DNA of 64,000 nt from Candidatus Desulfofervidus auxilii (GTDB taxonomy: Bacteria > Desulfobacterota > Desulfofervidia > Desulfofervidales > Desulfofervidaceae). The position numbers and the translations under genes were made by a program. Under the pieces are notes generated by a model. The model made no database searches and was not told the origin of the DNA. It worked only from the letters and a program-made list of their open reading frames with translations. The stretch covers positions 2,344,656 through 2,408,655 of the forward strand of contig NZ_CP013015.1 of the NCBI RefSeq assembly GCF_001577525.1, given 5' to 3'. Positions 5,955 to 12,998 of this stretch are shown piece after piece; the first letter of the stretch is position 1, and each line of letters begins with the position of its first letter.

Positions 5955-6015
5955 TTAATTTTAGAACTGTAACAAGCCTCTATCGAGATGTCAATCTTAC
6001 TTGAAAAATAACCAA

Positions 6016-6101
6016 TGGTGCCGAAGGCGGGATTTGAACCCGCACGAGGAACCCCTCACCAGACCCTGAACCTGGCGCGTCTGCCGTTCCGCCACTTCGG
6101 C
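6016..6101 (-). tRNA. tRNA-Leu (anticodon CAG)
   Basis: The minus strand folds as a class II tRNA. The acceptor is GCCGAAG paired with CTTCGGC, followed by discriminator A and an encoded CCA. The anticodon stem CCAGG/TCTGG holds loop TTCAGGG, so the anticodon is CAG. A long variable arm and a T-arm with GGTTCAAATCC are present. It lies alone between the flippase pair and ribF. Confidence 0.95.
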
Positions 6102-7097: not shown

Positions 7098-8532
7098 CCT
7101 TGTTTTAAACCTGTCTTCTAGCTGGGCTATAATACGTCCCTCAGCAGTAGCAGGGAAATGGTATAGAGAAGACCCCAAGGCACTTAAAGCCCAGATAGAG
7201 ACTTTTCTAAAAGACGCAAAATTGCCTTCCTTACCATCAAAGATTAATGCCCTGATTGTCCCCCATGCAGGCTATCGGTTTTCTGGCCCGACTGCGGCTT
7301 ATGCTTATAAGGCCATTGCCGGGCGAGGCTATAATCGGGTGGTGATTCTGGCCCCTTCTCATTATGCCCATTTTTATGGAGCATCTACTTTAGATGTGGT
7401 TGCTTATGAAACGCCATTAGGACAAGTGCCTGTGGATAGGAAAGTAGTGAAGGCATTATTAAAAAATCCTTTGTTTAAAGAACGTACTATGGCCCACTTA
7501 AGGGAACATGCCATTGAGGCCCAACTGCCCTTTCTACAAATAGTTTTAAAGGATTTTAAGATTGTTCCTATCTTGATTAGTGAGGTAAAGGATGAAGATA
7601 TTTTTATCCTGGCAGATATTTTAAAAAAAGTCTTGGGCAAAGATATAAAAAATACCCTTTTTATTGCCAGCTCTGATTTTACCCACTTTGGTCCTATGTA
7701 TGGTTATGTGCCTTTTAAAGAAAATATTTCAGAAAAAATCAAAAAAATGGATATGGAGGCAGTTGAGTTTATTAAAAAGGGTGATTCCAAAGGATTGTTA
7801 GATTATTACCATAAAACAAAAATCACTATTTGTGGCATTTATCCCATCGCTATTACTATTTCTTCTTTAGCTAAACAGCCTAAGGGATTTCTTTTACATT
7901 ATACGACTTCTGGAGAGATATTAAGCAATTACAGTAACTCTGTGAGTTATGTAGCCATGCTTTTAGATGAGCCTGGATTGAATCAGAATGAAAGGGAAAA
8001 CTTGTTAAAATTGGCCCGATTTACTTTAAAATATTACTTTAATCATGGTCATCCTCCTGCGGTTGAGGAAATTCCCATAAAAGTTTCTCCTGTCTTAAAA
8101 GAGAAAAAAGGGGCATTTGTTACCTTAAAAAAACACGGACAATTGAGGGGATGCATTGGATTTATAAGACCCATTTTCCCTCTTTATAAAACCGTCATGC
8201 AAGCAAGTCTTCAGGCAGCCTTTGCTGACCCTCGTTTTTTACCTTTACGTCAGGAGGAATTGAAAGAAATAGACATTGAGATTTCTGTGTTGGGGCCCAT
8301 TATTCCTGTAAAAAAAGTTGAAGAGATAAGAGTTGGTCGTGATGGACTTATCATTAAAAAAGATGGTCAGCAGGGACTACTTTTACCTCAGGTGGCAACT
8401 GAATTTAATCTGGATCGGCTAAAATTTTTAGAGTTGACTTGTAAAAAAGCAGGTCTTTCTCCCTCAGCCTGGAAAAAAGGGGCATCTATTTACCGCTTTA
8501 CGGCTGAGGTGTTTGGAGAGAAGAAACATTAA
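7018..8532 (+). CDS. MEMO-AMMECR1 fusion (AmmeMemoRadiSam proteins B and A) with apparent signal sequence
   Basis: About 505 residues. The first domain is MEMO-like: GKWYREDPKAL, LIVPHAGYRFSGP, VILAPSHYAHFYG, HAIEAQLPFLQ and SSDFTHFG keep the His residues of the dioxygenase-like metal site. The second is AMMECR1-like, with LRGCIGF and AFADPRF. The radical-SAM third member of this system is not in the window. A basic stretch and a hydrophobic run ending SSSWA precede the MEMO domain and look like a signal peptide, which would be unusual. I chose the GTG at 7018 because GGAAG sits 7 bases upstream; ATGs at 6982 and 7000 are alternatives. All of them overlap ribF. The biochemical role of the family is unsettled. 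Confidence 0.8.
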   Translation: MWRNWLLKLKKTLRPLGRYYLNFLLLSLVLNLSSSWAIIRPSAVAGKWYREDPKALKAQIETFLKDAKLPSLPSKINALIVPHAGYRFSGPTAAYAYKAIAGRGYNRVVILAPSHYAHFYGASTLDVVAYETPLGQVPVDRKVVKALLKNPLFKERTMAHLREHAIEAQLPFLQIVLKDFKIVPILISEVKDEDIFILADILKKVLGKDIKNTLFIASSDFTHFGPMYGYVPFKENISEKIKKMDMEAVEFIKKGDSKGLLDYYHKTKITICGIYPIAITISSLAKQPKGFLLHYTTSGEILSNYSNSVSYVAMLLDEPGLNQNERENLLKLARFTLKYYFNHGHPPAVEEIPIKVSPVLKEKKGAFVTLKKHGQLRGCIGFIRPIFPLYKTVMQASLQAAFADPRFLPLRQEELKEIDIEISVLGPIIPVKKVEEIRVGRDGLIIKKDGQQGLLLPQVATEFNLDRLKFLELTCKKAGLSPSAWKKGASIYRFTAEVFGEKKH

Positions 8533-8559: not shown

Positions 8560-8588
8560 TTGACAATCCCTTTTTTTTATGCTATTTT
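8560..8588 (+). promoter_or_regulatory. Sigma-70 promoter of the shikimate operon leader
   Basis: A perfect TTGACA (8560-8565) is followed after exactly 17 bases by TATTTT (8583-8588, 4 of 6). Transcription would begin near 8595, about 20 bases before the leader peptide start codon. This is a normal distance for a translated attenuator leader. Confidence 0.65.
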
Positions 8589-8617
8589 CACCTACGTTTT
8601 ATTGAGAAAGGGTAAAA

Positions 8618-8686
8618 ATGCAACAATTGAAGGGTGGTTTTTATTATTTTAGCTATTTTGATTTGGGTCTGCCCACTGTTTCATAA
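8618..8686 (+). CDS. Phe/Tyr-rich leader peptide of the shikimate operon attenuator (22 aa)
   Basis: A short reading frame with a good ribosome binding site (AAAGGG, 5 bases before the ATG). It encodes 22 residues starting MQQLKGG, then FYYFSYF (residues 8-14), then DLGLPTVS and TAA. Six of seven consecutive codons are TTT or TAT, and no Trp codon is in frame. Codon runs for the end product are the hallmark of leader peptides such as those of the trp, his and phe operons. The 3' part of the frame contains the first arm of the attenuator (8666-8676). The peptide itself probably has no function beyond ribosome positioning when charged tRNA-Phe or tRNA-Tyr is short. Confidence 0.85.
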   Translation: MQQLKGGFYYFSYFDLGLPTVS

Positions 8687-8773
8687 CCAAGGCCCAATTG
8701 CGATAATGGCCGTGGGCAGACCAGTGCCCACGGCTGAAAGGAAAGCCGTGGAGAGAACCTTCACGGCTTTTTT
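8666..8773 (+). promoter_or_regulatory. Transcription attenuator with five competing RNA segments
   Basis: Five segments pair in alternative ways. A (8666-8676) pairs with B (8712-8722) over 11 perfect bases. The overlapping B region 8709-8718 pairs with C 8725-8734 over 10 bases. C 8728-8735 pairs with D 8744-8751 over 8 bases. D 8742-8750 pairs with E 8762-8770 over 9 bases and forms the terminator. If A is free, A:B releases C, C:D forms and the terminator cannot. A ribosome that finishes the leader peptide (stop at 8684-8686) would cover A, so B:C and the D:E terminator form. A ribosome stalled at the early Phe/Tyr codons leaves A free and allows readthrough. The mechanism is inferred from pairing. 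Confidence 0.8.
8742..8773 (+). terminator. Rho-independent terminator of the attenuator
   Basis: AAAGCCGTG pairs with CACGGCTTT across an 11-base loop and is followed directly by a T-rich run (TTTTTTATTATTT). It lies 27 bases upstream of the first structural gene and inside the leader, so it is regulatory rather than the end of a gene. Confidence 0.85.
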
Positions 8774-8800
8774 ATTATTTATAAAATAGGAGGTTAAAAG

Positions 8801-9619
8801 ATGGGAATGGAATTAGCAGGCAAGCAAATCGGCAAAAGGATCAGGCTAGAGCGAATCTTCGATCGGGAGACAGGTAAAACCGTAATTATTCCAATGGATC
8901 ATGGGGTTACAGTGGGTCCTATTCCGGGTTTGACTGATATGAAAGAGATTATCAACCAGGTGGCCCTAGGAGGTGCCAATGCCATTGTCATCCACAAAGG
9001 GATTGTCACTGCTGGACATAGAGGGGGTGGTCCTGATGTGGGTCTTATCATTCACCTTTCAGGTAGCACTTCTTTATCTCCCTTCCCAAATACAAAAACT
9101 CTAGTTTGCACAGTAGAGGAGGCTATAAAACTAGGTGCAGATGCAGTTTCTATCCATGTTAACTTGGGAGATGAAAATGAAAGGGAAATGCTGAGAGATT
9201 TTGGAGAGGTTTCTAAAAAGGCCTTAGATTGGGGGATGCCTTTATTGGCTATGGTTTATCCTAGGGGACCAAAGATTAAAGATAGTTATGACCCTGATAC
9301 CATTGCTCATTGTGCCAGATTAGGAGCTGAGTTAGGAGCAGATGTAGTAAAAGTGTCTTATACCGGATCAGAGGAAACTTTCAGAAAGGTAGTAGAAGGT
9401 TGCCCAGTGCCAGTAGTGATTGCTGGTGGTCCAAAAATGAATTCGGATAGAGAGGTAATAGAAATGGTCAAAGGGGCAATAGAAGCTGGAGGTGCAGGTG
9501 TTTCTATTGGAAGGAATGCCTTTCAACATGCAAATCCCACCAAAATAGTAAGGGCTATTGCTCAAGTGGTCCATAAAAATGTCAGTGTAGAAGAAGCCTT
9601 AAAAGAATTGGAGGGTTAA
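8801..9619 (+). CDS. 2-amino-3,7-dideoxy-D-threo-hept-6-ulosonate (ADTH) synthase
   Basis: A 272-residue class I aldolase-type TIM barrel of the archaeal MJ0400 family. It joins 6-deoxy-5-ketofructose 1-phosphate and aspartate semialdehyde in the archaeal-type route to dehydroquinate, replacing DAHP synthase. Visible landmarks are [10 protein letters not shown] near residue 30 (active-site Asp), AMVYPRGP near 150 (Tyr), [11 protein letters not shown] near 185 (Schiff-base Lys) and VVIAGGPK. The start has a strong AGGAGG. DHQ synthase II follows after one base. The pairing with that partner separates it from ordinary fructose-bisphosphate aldolase of the same fold. Confidence 0.92.
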
Positions 9620-9620
9620 A

Positions 9621-10613
9621 ATGAAACAGGTTTGGGTAAAGGTAATACCATGGCAAAAAAAATTGGTAACCACGGCCATTGAAGGTGGGGCCGATGCCAT
9701 TTTGGTAGAGAAAGGTAAAACAGAGGCGGTTCATGCCTTAGGCCGCATCAAAACCATAGCCCCAGACGGTGACTTGAAGATAGATAAAGACGTCATCTTT
9801 GCAGAAATAAAAAGCAAGGAAGACGAAGAAAGGGTTTTAAAACTTACCAAAACAGCTATAGTGGTAGTTACAGCCAAGGACTGGAAGATTATTCCTTTAG
9901 AAAATCTGGTTGCCCAAACAAATAACTTATTTGCTGAAGCTGCTACAGTGGAAGAAGCAAAAACATTATTAGGCGTATTAGAAAAAGGAGTAGATGGTAT
10001 TTTAGTAAACACTACTAATATCAATGAATTAAAAAAGATACTGGATTTGGTGAAAAAATGGTCAGAGAAATTAGAGCTTTATTCAGGAAAGGTAACCCTT
10101 ATTAAACCCTTAGGAATGGGATATAGAGTATGTGTGGATACCTGCGATTTAATGGAAATAGGTGAAGGGATGTTGATAGGTAATAGTAGTGCAAGCATGT
10201 TTTTGGTTCATGCGGAGAATATAGAAAATCCTTATGTGAGTCCCAGGCCATTTAGGGTCAATGCAGGCCCAGTGCATGCTTATATTAAGGTTCCAGGGAA
10301 TAAGACAAAATACTTATCTGAATTAAAGGCCGGAGATGAAGTATTGATTGTCAATGCTAAAGGGGAAACCAGGACAGGGATTGTAGGCCGAGTAAAAGTA
10401 GAAAGACGTCCCTTGCTCTTGGTAGAGGCAGAGGTAGATGGTCAGAAGGTGAGCACCATTTTACAAAATGCAGAGACTATCCGCTTGACTACACCAAAAG
10501 GCAAACCTATCTCTGTAGTCCAGTTGAAGCCTGGAGATGAAGTAGTGGTGGCTATGGAAAAGGGAGGGAGACATTTTGGCCATAAGATAGAAGAAACTAT
10601 TATGGAAAAATGA
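9621..10613 (+). CDS. 3-dehydroquinate synthase II (archaeal type)
   Basis: A 330-residue member of the MJ1249 family, unrelated to AroB. It carries out NAD-dependent oxidative deamination and cyclisation of ADTH to 3-dehydroquinate. Recognisable segments are MGYRVCVDTCDLMEIGEGML near residue 165, SSASMFLVHAEN near 190 and PFRVNAGPVHAYI near 213, plus a C-terminal beta-rich domain. The Shine-Dalgarno GGAGGG lies in the end of the preceding gene. Its stop overlaps the aroE start by 4 bases (ATGA). It completes the alternative entry to the shikimate pathway in this operon. Confidence 0.93.
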   Translation: MKQVWVKVIPWQKKLVTTAIEGGADAILVEKGKTEAVHALGRIKTIAPDGDLKIDKDVIFAEIKSKEDEERVLKLTKTAIVVVTAKDWKIIPLENLVAQTNNLFAEAATVEEAKTLLGVLEKGVDGILVNTTNINELKKILDLVKKWSEKLELYSGKVTLIKPLGMGYRVCVDTCDLMEIGEGMLIGNSSASMFLVHAENIENPYVSPRPFRVNAGPVHAYIKVPGNKTKYLSELKAGDEVLIVNAKGETRTGIVGRVKVERRPLLLVEAEVDGQKVSTILQNAETIRLTTPKGKPISVVQLKPGDEVVVAMEKGGRHFGHKIEETIMEK

Positions 10614-11434
10614 TGCCTATTGATGCAGAAACCAGTTTATATGGTATTATTGGCCATCCTGTAAGGCATAGCTTAAGCCCGATTATTCAAAATTTGGCGT
10701 TTACTTCCTATAATATAAATGCTGTTTATCTGGCCTTTGAGGTAACTGAGCTTTCTGGGGCCATAAAAGGGGTGAAGGCCTTAGGCATAAAGGGCTTGAG
10801 TGTAACTATTCCCCACAAGATAAATATTATGTCTTTTTTGGATGAAATAGATATAATGGCTCAAAAAATTGGAGCTATAAATACAGTAGTAAATAGAGAT
10901 GGCTATTTATTGGGATTTAATACCGATTGGTTAGGGGCCTTACTTAGTCTAAAAGAAAAAACAGAGATAAAGGGGAAAAGATTTGTTATTTTGGGTGCCG
11001 GTGGAGCAGCTAGGGCCATTGCCTTTGGGTTAAAAAAAGAAGGGGCAGAAATAATTATCGTTAATCGCACTTATGAAAAAGGCTGTGCTTTGGCCAAAGA
11101 GATAAATGCCCATGCCTTCCCTTGGGAAAAATTACCTGTGCTAGCTGGTGATGTGCTCATTAATACTACTCCCATAGGAATGTGGCCAGAGATAGATACT
11201 TCTCCAGTGGATGAAAAGGTATTAGCCAAATTTGAGCTAGTGATGGATACGGTATACAGACCATTAAAGACTAAACTCCTTCAAATGGCGGAAAAGATGG
11301 GTTGTAATACCATTGGCGGATTAAAAATGCTCATTTATCAAGGGGCAGAACAATTCCGTTTGTGGACAAAAAAAGAACCGCCAGTAGAAAAAATGTTGAA
11401 AGTGGCTGAAAAATTTTTGGAAAAGGAAAATTGA
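10610..11434 (+). CDS. aroE: Shikimate dehydrogenase (NADP-dependent)
   Basis: A 274-residue enzyme reducing 3-dehydroshikimate to shikimate. Substrate residues are visible in HSLSP near residue 20, TIPHK near 67 (catalytic Lys) and NTDWLG near 103 (catalytic Asp). The Rossmann motif is LGAGGAARAI near 128, and VNRT near 150 is the NADP-phosphate-binding loop. GGLKMLIYQGAEQF near the end is the conserved C-terminal substrate helix. It overlaps DHQ synthase II by ATGA, and its stop overlaps the aroA start, so it is translationally coupled on both sides. Confidence 0.95.
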   Translation: MMPIDAETSLYGIIGHPVRHSLSPIIQNLAFTSYNINAVYLAFEVTELSGAIKGVKALGIKGLSVTIPHKINIMSFLDEIDIMAQKIGAINTVVNRDGYLLGFNTDWLGALLSLKEKTEIKGKRFVILGAGGAARAIAFGLKKEGAEIIIVNRTYEKGCALAKEINAHAFPWEKLPVLAGDVLINTTPIGMWPEIDTSPVDEKVLAKFELVMDTVYRPLKTKLLQMAEKMGCNTIGGLKMLIYQGAEQFRLWTKKEPPVEKMLKVAEKFLEKEN

Positions 11435-12690
11435 AAAAGCTAATCACTCCTATCTCAAATCACCTAAAACTTACCATCACTGTTCCTGGCTCGAAGAGCC
11501 TTACCCATCGGGCATTGATTACGGCTGCTTTGGCCAAAGGCCATTCTACTCTGGAAAACATTCTTTTGGCAGAAGATACCCTTTTGACCACAGAGGCTTT
11601 AAGGCAGATGGGTGTGAAGATAGATATTTCTAATACCCAGGCTGTGGTGCAAGGGATAGAGAAAAAATTAATTCCTCCTAAAAGACCTGTTTATTTAGGT
11701 AATTCAGGCACTTCTATGCGTCTTTTGACTGCCATTTGTGCTATAGGTCAGGGGCGTTTTGTCCTTACAGGAAATGAAAGGATGCAACAAAGGCCAATTC
11801 AACCTTTATTGGATGCCTTAAATCAATGGGGAGTAAAGGCATATAGTGAAAGGCAAAATGGATGTCCGCCTGTGGTTATTGAAACTCAAGGTTTAAATGG
11901 CGGTAAGACAGAGATAGACCCTACCATAAGCAGTCAGTTTCTCTCTGGTCTTCTTTTGGCTGCTCCTTATGGGAGAAGAGATAGTGTGATTGAGGTAAAA
12001 GGCAAGATTGCCTCGCTTCCTTATGTGGACTTAACCATAGATGTAATGGAAAAATTCGGTATTTCTGTAAAGAATTTGAATTATAAATGTTTTGAAGTAA
12101 AAAAAGGTCATTATCAGGCCTGCCAATATACCATTGAAGGTGATTGCTCAACTGCTTCTTATTTTTGGGCGGCAGCTGCTATTTTAAAAGGTGAGGTTAC
12201 TGTAAGACCCATTGCTCAAACCTCCAAACAGGCAGATATTGGATTTGTTAATGTATTGAAAAAAATGGGATGTCAAATAATTCCCCAGGGAGATGGTATT
12301 AAGGTAATCGGTAGAAATAATTTAAGGGGTATTACAGTGGATATGAATAAAATGCCAGATGTAGTGCCTACTCTAGCGGTGGTGGCGGCCTTTGCTAAAG
12401 GAGAAACAGTGATTAATAATGTAGGACATTTAAGGGTTAAGGAGTGTGATAGGCTACAGGCCGTGGCTACTGAATTAAAAAAGATGGGCATTGAGGTAAA
12501 AGAAAAAAAAGATGGTCTTATTATCAAAGGCGGTCAACCGCAAGGGGCTGAGATTGAGACTTATAATGACCATCGTATCGCTATGAGCTTTGCCATAGCC
12601 GGGTTAAAAGTGCCTGGGATAATAATTAGAAATCCTGATTGTGTAAAAAAATCCTTTCCGGGATTTTGGGAAACAGGTCTATTTAAATGA
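11431..12690 (+). CDS. aroA: EPSP synthase (3-phosphoshikimate 1-carboxyvinyltransferase)
   Basis: A 419-residue enzyme adding the enolpyruvyl group of PEP to shikimate 3-phosphate. Motifs: PGSKSLTHRALI near residue 20, LGNSGTSMRLL near 90 (PEP site), GNERMQQRPI near 115, PDVVPTLAVVAAFA near 310, KECDRLQAVATEL near 336 (catalytic Glu/Arg region) and DHRIAMSFA near 385. The start codon is TTG, placed so that TTGA overlaps the aroE stop. AAGGA lies 4-5 bases upstream. Its own stop overlaps the next small gene by ATGA. Confidence 0.95.
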   Translation: MKKLITPISNHLKLTITVPGSKSLTHRALITAALAKGHSTLENILLAEDTLLTTEALRQMGVKIDISNTQAVVQGIEKKLIPPKRPVYLGNSGTSMRLLTAICAIGQGRFVLTGNERMQQRPIQPLLDALNQWGVKAYSERQNGCPPVVIETQGLNGGKTEIDPTISSQFLSGLLLAAPYGRRDSVIEVKGKIASLPYVDLTIDVMEKFGISVKNLNYKCFEVKKGHYQACQYTIEGDCSTASYFWAAAAILKGEVTVRPIAQTSKQADIGFVNVLKKMGCQIIPQGDGIKVIGRNNLRGITVDMNKMPDVVPTLAVVAAFAKGETVINNVGHLRVKECDRLQAVATELKKMGIEVKEKKDGLIIKGGQPQGAEIETYNDHRIAMSFAIAGLKVPGIIIRNPDCVKKSFPGFWETGLFK

Positions 12691-12998
12691 GTAAAAAACA
12701 GATAAAAAACCTTCACCAGAAATTGCAACAAGAAATAACTAAACTTAAAAAGACATTTGAGGAAGATGTCTGTCCAACTTTTGTTCCTGCCCCACCTGAA
12801 CTTACCAGAAATTTTAATCATTACTTAGAAGAGGCAAAACGTATTTGTCCTGAACATGAAGGAATTCAGTTATTGGATCCCCTAAATGAAAAAGGATGTA
12901 AAATGGGGCAGGTTTTAAGAGCAAGCATAGCCCTATCTGAATTTTTATCTGAATGCCAAACTAATGCCAATTGCTCAGGCCCCACGAGGGAAAATTAA
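12687..12998 (+). CDS. Small hypothetical protein at the end of the shikimate operon
   Basis: A 103-residue protein I do not recognise. The first 25 residues are strongly helical and lysine-rich. The rest contains four Cys residues spread singly (EDVCPTF, RICPEH, KGCKMG, ECQTNANC). ATGA overlap with aroA makes it part of the operon. It is not a chorismate mutase: the Arg/Lys/Glu pattern of AroQ is absent. A chaperone-like or regulatory role for the pathway is possible but nothing visible shows it. Confidence 0.6.
   Translation: MSKKQIKNLHQKLQQEITKLKKTFEEDVCPTFVPAPPELTRNFNHYLEEAKRICPEHEGIQLLDPLNEKGCKMGQVLRASIALSEFLSECQTNANCSGPTREN

Follow-up and report, generated by a model that had tools for sequence, protein, structure and literature searches.

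A very probable five-segment ribosome-mediated attenuator before the ADTH synthase operon of Candidatus Desulfofervidus auxilii, with relatives across Desulfobacterota and a candidate counterpart in Archaea

RESULTS

The operon and its leader

The window, by which we mean the whole stretch of 64,000 nucleotides that was analysed, comes from Candidatus Desulfofervidus auxilii, whose genome is a single contig of 2.54 Mb; among named relatives, Candidatus Desulfofervidaceae MAGs are the closest, with 88% identity in ADTH synthase (2-amino-3,7-dideoxy-D-threo-hept-6-ulosonate synthase; ADTHS). The element described here lies on the plus strand between a Memo/AMMECR1 gene, which ends at position 8532, and the ADTHS operon, which starts at 8801 on the same strand. 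The first structural gene is preceded by the Shine-Dalgarno sequence AGGAGG (8788-8793) and encodes a DeoC/LacD aldolase (8801-9619; PF01791, E 1.4e-71) that is named ADTHS because it is paired with 3-dehydroquinate synthase II (DHQS II; 9621-10613; PF01959, E 2.9e-133). Shikimate dehydrogenase (aroE; 10610-11434; PF08501, E 8.6e-28) and EPSP synthase (aroA; 11431-12690; PF00275, E 1.7e-131) follow, and the operon ends with a 103-aa ORF that overlaps the end of aroA and has no Pfam match (12687-12998). Elsewhere in the window, an Rfam tRNA match on the minus strand (6019-6101) is antisense to the 5′ part of the ORF that begins at 6015, and the true start of that ORF is therefore probably further downstream.

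The promoter, leader Shine-Dalgarno sequence and operon order named in a sequence-only reading of this DNA are all present, the last through the Pfam assignments above. The predicted sigma-70-type promoter, TTGACA-N17-TATTTT (8560-8588), matches the consensus at 10 of 12 positions, and a TTGACA-N17-TA box with the same 17-nt spacing is found in two relatives, L017 and L018 (also labelled L003 and L002). A purine-rich, Shine-Dalgarno-like stretch, GAGAAAGGG (8604-8612), lies 5 nt 5′ of the ATG of the leader ORF, MQQLKGGFYYFSYFDLGLPTVS, which has 22 codons (8618-8686) and its stop codon at 8684. Codons 8-14 (8639-8659) read FYYFSYF, with six Phe or Tyr codons in seven, as that reading had stated; both the aromatic run and the GLPT/A-type tail of the peptide are kept in the relatives L016-L019. 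Shuffling this AT-rich intergenic stretch produces an equally dense aromatic run in 2.8% of cases, and a few other short ORFs in the 64-kb window have such runs. The codon run by itself is thus only moderately unlikely, and it is the sequence conservation described below that excludes chance. No comparable aromatic leader stands directly upstream of the prephenate dehydratase or prephenate dehydrogenase genes of the same genome. The aromatic short ORFs at 2827-3154 of L296 are located downstream of the gene.

Five RNA segments with overlapping complementarity start in the closing codons of the leader ORF: A (GGUCUGCCCAC; 8666-8676), within the ORF; B (GCCGUGGGCAGACC; 8709-8722), with A or C as alternative partners; C (UGCCCACGGCU; 8725-8735), with B or D; D (AAAGCCGUGG; 8742-8751), which pairs with C as an antiterminator or with E as a terminator; and E with its U tract (8762-8773). 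The stem lengths given by the sequence-only reading proved correct throughout: A:B has 11 bp (8666-8676 with 8712-8722), B:C 10 bp (8709-8718 with 8725-8734), C:D 8 bp (8728-8735 with 8744-8751) and D:E 9 bp (8742-8750 with 8762-8770), and T6 at 8768-8773 follows the last. Both a terminator scan and covariation mark D:E as an intrinsic terminator. A small 7-bp hairpin, in which 8663-8669 pairs with 8691-8697, competes with A:B, and a similar pairing is visible in L017-L019. The leader of 241 nt has a minimum free energy of -76.2 kcal/mol (z = -4.6), a value equalled by 0 of 200 shuffles. The element thus has an ORF rich in codons for the end products and an intrinsic terminator before the first gene, as attenuators do, together with an antiterminator that, according to computed folding and covariation, is mutually exclusive with the terminator and depends on ribosome position. 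It departs from the four-segment trp type in having five segments and a codon run (8639-8659) that lies upstream of A.

A structured and conserved 5′ region could also belong to a leader that binds a protein or small molecule, such as a riboswitch or a TRAP- or T-box-like element, in which case the ORF would be accidental. Rfam families, including Phe_leader, Trp_leader and T-box, gave no match to the window leader at gathering score, nor to 20 related loci save for one tmRNA, and the aromatic content of the ORF and its near-fixed distance from the stop codon are conserved in 65 leaders; we regard this explanation as extremely improbable. The weak Rfam hits to BTnc231, rimP and SAM-II (E 0.03-2.5) were far under the gathering scores and were rejected as identities for the leader, and a search of a phage collection for the leader gave no match.

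A model for the window attenuator and folding of the growing RNA

We consider the window element to be, very probably, a ribosome-mediated transcription attenuator that controls ADTHS, DHQS II, aroE and aroA by sensing how fully tRNA-Phe and tRNA-Tyr are charged. Its sequence, conservation and covariation, and the thermodynamic consistency of its alternative folds, are observed; stalling, termination and a response to amino acids are predicted by the following model. Under a shortage of charged tRNA, the leading ribosome would stall in the FYYFSYF run with its footprint stopping short of A, and A:B would pair; this would leave C free to pair with D, so that D:E would come too late and RNA polymerase would continue. 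With ample charged tRNA, the ribosome would reach the stop codon at 8684 and cover A; B:C would then form as C is synthesized, D would be left free for E, and transcription would end. In such an odd-numbered relay the ribosome would affect the first segment only on finishing the ORF, and readthrough should therefore be the default for untranslated RNA. The extra hairpin, B:C, would set the decision early, before the ribosome departs from the stop codon.

The model was examined by partition-function folding of the growing RNA, with a ribosome represented by the A-site codon plus about 12 hidden nucleotides. For a ribosome placed on F8 or F11, A:B and C:D both had computed probabilities of about 1.0 when the RNA had grown to 8755, and of 0.68-0.97 when it had grown to 8765. 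For a ribosome on the stop codon, B:C was computed at 0.955-1.0 and C:D at no more than 0.045 for the same two lengths. Shortly before E emerges, D is therefore predicted to be available when the ribosome has finished, and to be sequestered when it has stalled. The RNA without a ribosome behaved like the stalled case, with A:B and C:D at about 1.0 at both 8755 and 8765, and so the termination of an untranslated leader (superattenuation) that characterizes trp- and his-type attenuators did not appear in the computed folds of the window. The claim that stalling on early Phe and Tyr codons frees A agrees with these snapshots, in that codons 8-11 are predicted to work best; it does not extend to the end of the run, because a ribosome at Phe14 covers part of A and gives weak predicted antitermination.

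For the complete transcript at equilibrium, D:E wins in every case. The decision must therefore be kinetic, as it is for known attenuators, and equilibrium folding of the whole leader, which returned the terminator every time, was set aside as an uninformative readout of regulation.

Conservation and covariation before ADTHS in Desulfobacterota

Two signs that the sequence-only reading had proposed as checks, covariation of the stems and a conserved aromatic run in relatives, were both found. Defined as at least six Phe, Tyr or Trp codons within nine codons of a short ORF, an aromatic leader is present in 66 of 120 upstream regions of ADTHS genes in Desulfobacterota, compared with 0.5% of shuffles, none on the reverse strand and, as a control, a maximum of 4 in 11 distant paralogues (<40% identity). 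Every one of the 65 leaders that were parsed has a terminator-like hairpin and T run after the stop codon, and in 61 of them the last aromatic codon begins 21-39 nt 5′ of the stop, a spacing that a stalled ribosome requires if it is to leave A uncovered.

The number of hairpins varies. There are two, formed from five segments, in 23 of the 65 leaders, and a single one, with three segments and a choice between A:B and a terminator B:C, in the other 42. Most of the two-hairpin relatives have a T run after the first hairpin also, that is, tandem terminators; in the window's own family this T run has been lost, and the first hairpin acts as a protector only. A tandem duplication of the terminator in a simpler three-segment ancestor is the probable origin of the five-segment form.

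For covariation we aligned 18 five-segment leaders, in which all four stems have compensatory changes, including 5 of the 11 pairs of A:B. In the readthrough fold (A:B with C:D), 91.2% of cells are paired and both partners have changed in 8 of the 19 pairs, a result given by 0 of 500 shuffles; when the segments were slid as a control, 31-44% of cells were paired. The termination fold (B:C with D:E) has 93.4% of cells paired and seven pairs changed on both sides, a number reached by 11 of 500 shuffles; when individual cells with changes on both sides are counted instead, none of the 500 shuffles does so. Because B, C, D and E overlap, the covariation does not fully separate C:D from B:C and D:E. 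As a separate measure, B forms a stronger duplex with A of its own genome than with A swapped in from others (n = 65, mean z -1.2), with a nominal p of 8e-9 that is too small because the sequences are related. The same duplex swap showed C:D pairing to be no stronger within than between genomes, as is explained by the shared GCCGUGG/CCACGGC motif. Another measure, the average pairing between the terminator arm and A zones that had been shuffled or swapped, had too high a background to discriminate, and the duplex swaps took its place. In distant relatives the A and B sequences diverge: one clade has GCCUGUGGUC with GGCCGCAGGC, and another has GCGCCUCG...CUUUUAAAAG with CUUUUAAAAGCCGUGGCGC.

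The prevalence of single-hairpin leaders among the relatives, together with the dominance of D:E at equilibrium, could be taken to mean that the window element has a three-segment core, in which the C:D versus D:E switch is all that counts and A:B is incidental or a pause hairpin. In the window, however, C lies about 40-50 nt past the stop codon, and a ribosome on the leader can reach C:D only by way of A:B and B:C; moreover, A:B has the compensatory changes and the within-genome fit just described. We consider a three-segment core unlikely and retain the five-segment relay for the window.

The same RNA before other aromatic genes

A covariance model, R1, was built on the RNA that follows the codon run, with the codon run itself left out. 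Searched against 148 Desulfobacterota genomes at E <=0.001, it hit 72. We examined 27 matches outside ADTHS: the gene that follows is a DAHP synthase (DAHPS) in 13, trpE in 10, and a TrpB-like gene and an aminotransferase in one each. All 10 trpE leaders have at least two Trp codons close together, for example in the runs NNNWWWWQDS (L317), KKYWWWRKE (L330) and LNYWWWLLR (L336, from the window's own family). The DAHPS leaders have mostly Phe and Tyr codons but also Trp, as in FFAYWYYTYF (L319), YYFWYFF (L313) and WWW (L315). The loci with a Trp-codon leader and tandem-hairpin RNA before trpE are L310, L317, L322, L326, L328, L330-L333 and L336, and those before DAHPS are L304, L309, L313-L316, L318-L320, L323, L324, L327 and L335, with L316 read by eye.

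This fit between leader codons and gene product, for a model that had no codon input, supports sensing of the end product and is the strongest evidence for it. It also bears on the possibility of nascent-peptide arrest of the TnaC or Erm kind, in which a free aromatic amino acid or other ligand would be sensed rather than tRNA charging. Parts of the peptide after the run are indeed conserved in places (GLPTVS in the window's family and CASTFK in another clade), as an arrest sequence would be, but these tail codons sit in segment A, and their conservation is accounted for by that location. Furthermore, F, Y and W interchange freely in the runs of relatives, and Trp takes the place of Phe and Tyr before trpE, which is expected for the counting of codons and not for an arrest sequence. 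Peptide arrest thus appears very unlikely, and codon counting by tRNA charging is the reading that we keep. The logic put forward in the sequence-only reading, that a finishing ribosome covers A and an early stall frees it, draws support from the covariation, from the folding snapshots and from this codon-matched RNA at other loci. The window element apparently belongs to a Desulfobacterota-wide family that is absent from Rfam.

Some matches outside the main groups are recorded here. L334 has the leader MKFNNFFFFFFVFTRAHPCP, with the run FFFFFF, and tandem hairpins before a PLP-dependent aminotransferase gene. L321 and L325 are matches before a glutamine-amidotransferase-like ORF (judged by eye) and a PtsP-like ORF; L321 has no aromatic run, and L325 has GGGFYRFYQTK.

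DISCUSSION

Relation to known attenuators

Several properties of the window element have precedents. An attenuator before the Desulfovibrio vulgaris operon aroA'-aroB'-pheA-aroF-tyrA-trp was predicted in 2005 (PMC1173090, Table 7, taken from Merino's website), and that operon, like the one in the window, starts with ADTHS and DHQS II and belongs to the same phylum. The sequence-only reading knew of no attenuator for such an operon; that part of its novelty claim falls to the earlier prediction, and what stands is the leader peptide and the mechanism, since the table and its accompanying text describe neither a leader peptide nor a structure or mechanism. In the literature covered, which has most subscription journals outside its scope, we found no description of a leader peptide of the window type, of the five-segment form or of the family.

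Enterobacterial pheA and trp attenuators share with the window element the presence of end-product codons in the leader and the competition between terminator and antiterminator, but their control codons form part of segment 1 in a chain of four, whereas in the window the codons are upstream of A. The his attenuator of E. coli and Salmonella is similar in that it combines a regulatory codon run with an extra hairpin before the terminator. It is an even chain of six segments (A:B, C:D and E:F versus B:C and D:E); a stalled ribosome there sits on the first segment, and the RNA terminates when it is not translated. In contrast, the window has an odd chain of five, in which a stalled ribosome would leave A free and readthrough is the prediction for untranslated RNA. 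The extra hairpin of his locks the decision early and cuts basal readthrough (Elf and Ehrenberg, PMC1183508), and by analogy B:C plausibly has the same role of an early decision and lower basal readthrough. The extra segment relative to trp, to which the sequence-only reading drew attention, is therefore real but not unprecedented. The trp attenuators of Corynebacterium and Streptomyces (PMC1262725) have three mutually complementary segments, like the single-hairpin relatives described here; they differ in that no second hairpin is described for them, in responding to Trp only and in belonging to another phylum. The three-hairpin ilvBNC attenuator of C. glutamicum (PMC11857589) has the same logic of terminator, antiterminator and anti-antiterminator, but with one layer fewer, and is concerned with branched-chain amino acids.

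What is new, then, is the odd-numbered relay, the predicted default readthrough and the family; the prediction of an attenuator and the extra hairpin were already known. The odd-numbered relay adds a design to the known attenuators and suggests a rationale for both kinds of chain, namely that the chain would be even or odd according to which ribosome, the stalled or the finishing one, has to act on segment 1. In addition, a single RNA module appears to have been reused before non-homologous first enzymes (ADTHS and DAHPS) and before trpE, with exchange of the codons, and as a result the sensing and switching parts can be compared across a phylum.

A candidate counterpart in Archaea

Upstream ORFs that end in aromatic codons also precede ADTHS genes in Methanomicrobiales (L010-L014 and L154-L220). 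Across 72 genomes, the last 14 codons of these ORFs have a mean of 7.9 Phe, Tyr or Trp codons, and 96% of the genomes have at least six, compared with 2.2% of shuffles and a reverse-strand mean of 1.5. The run uses TTC, TAC and TGG and is therefore more than a T tract. It reaches to 3-15 nt from the stop codon, in contrast to the 21-39 nt of the bacterial leaders. A TATA-like box was found in 42 of the 72, mostly 28-39 nt 5′ of the upstream ORF, as would be the case for a leaderless mRNA.

The nucleotides right after the stop codon of the archaeal ORF are computed to pair with the Shine-Dalgarno region of ADTHS, forming a hairpin, and there are compensatory differences between species (CCCCCUGU/ACAGGGGG in L185 and CGAUCGCC/GGUGAUCG in L158). 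Partners from one genome pair better than partners taken from different genomes (65 loci, mean z -1.0), with a nominal p of 1e-7 that is affected by relatedness of the sequences. Placing a ribosome at the last aromatic codon raises the computed exposure of the Shine-Dalgarno sequence from 0.31 to 0.50. A ribosome stalled for want of charged tRNA would thus open the hairpin that hides the ADTHS Shine-Dalgarno sequence, and on this model we strongly infer translational attenuation. On balance, it seems probable that Archaea count amino acids before ADTHS by translational control, and that the bacterial family uses an odd relay in which Phe/Tyr codons are swapped for Trp codons between operons. 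If the archaeal system works in this way, it would extend leader-peptide attenuation to Archaea and would be the first such description as far as we have found, the literature covered (with most subscription journals outside its scope) having yielded no report of an archaeal leader-peptide attenuator.

Substitutions in the archaeal run were counted between close pairs, with 13 synonymous and 39 non-synonymous changes, and the aromatic class was retained in 16 of the 31 changes that touch an aromatic codon. This pattern does not have the signature of a conserved peptide, and it only mildly supports conservation of the aromatic class. The aromatic upstream ORF is absent at 24 ADTHS loci of other Halobacteriota, where one ORF scoring 7 in 12 was rejected because its end is not an aromatic run. 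No Trp-codon leaders were found before archaeal trpE; a recurrent MPVEW ORF at that position is accounted for by the trpE Shine-Dalgarno region.

The operon at L012, as assigned by eye, consists of ADTHS, a second ADTHS-like gene, DHQS II and ORFs that resemble prephenate dehydrogenase and prephenate dehydratase. The N-terminal part of the archaeal upstream ORF is conserved as well (MSVFSPVNVFI). Many of the Methanomicrobiales ORFs start with a near-repeat, for example GTGAGTGTTTTTTCACCGGTGAACGCTTTTATCAC in L010, with the palindrome TTCACCGGTGAA near the expected start of transcription; this palindrome may be an operator or other DNA-binding site that overlaps the N-terminus of the ORF. Palindromes are also found upstream of ADTHS in other Halobacteriota, at L293 and L294 (TGCTACTATGTGACATAGTAGCA / TGCTACTGTGTATCACAGTAGCA), and could possibly be a repressor site that replaces the upstream ORF.
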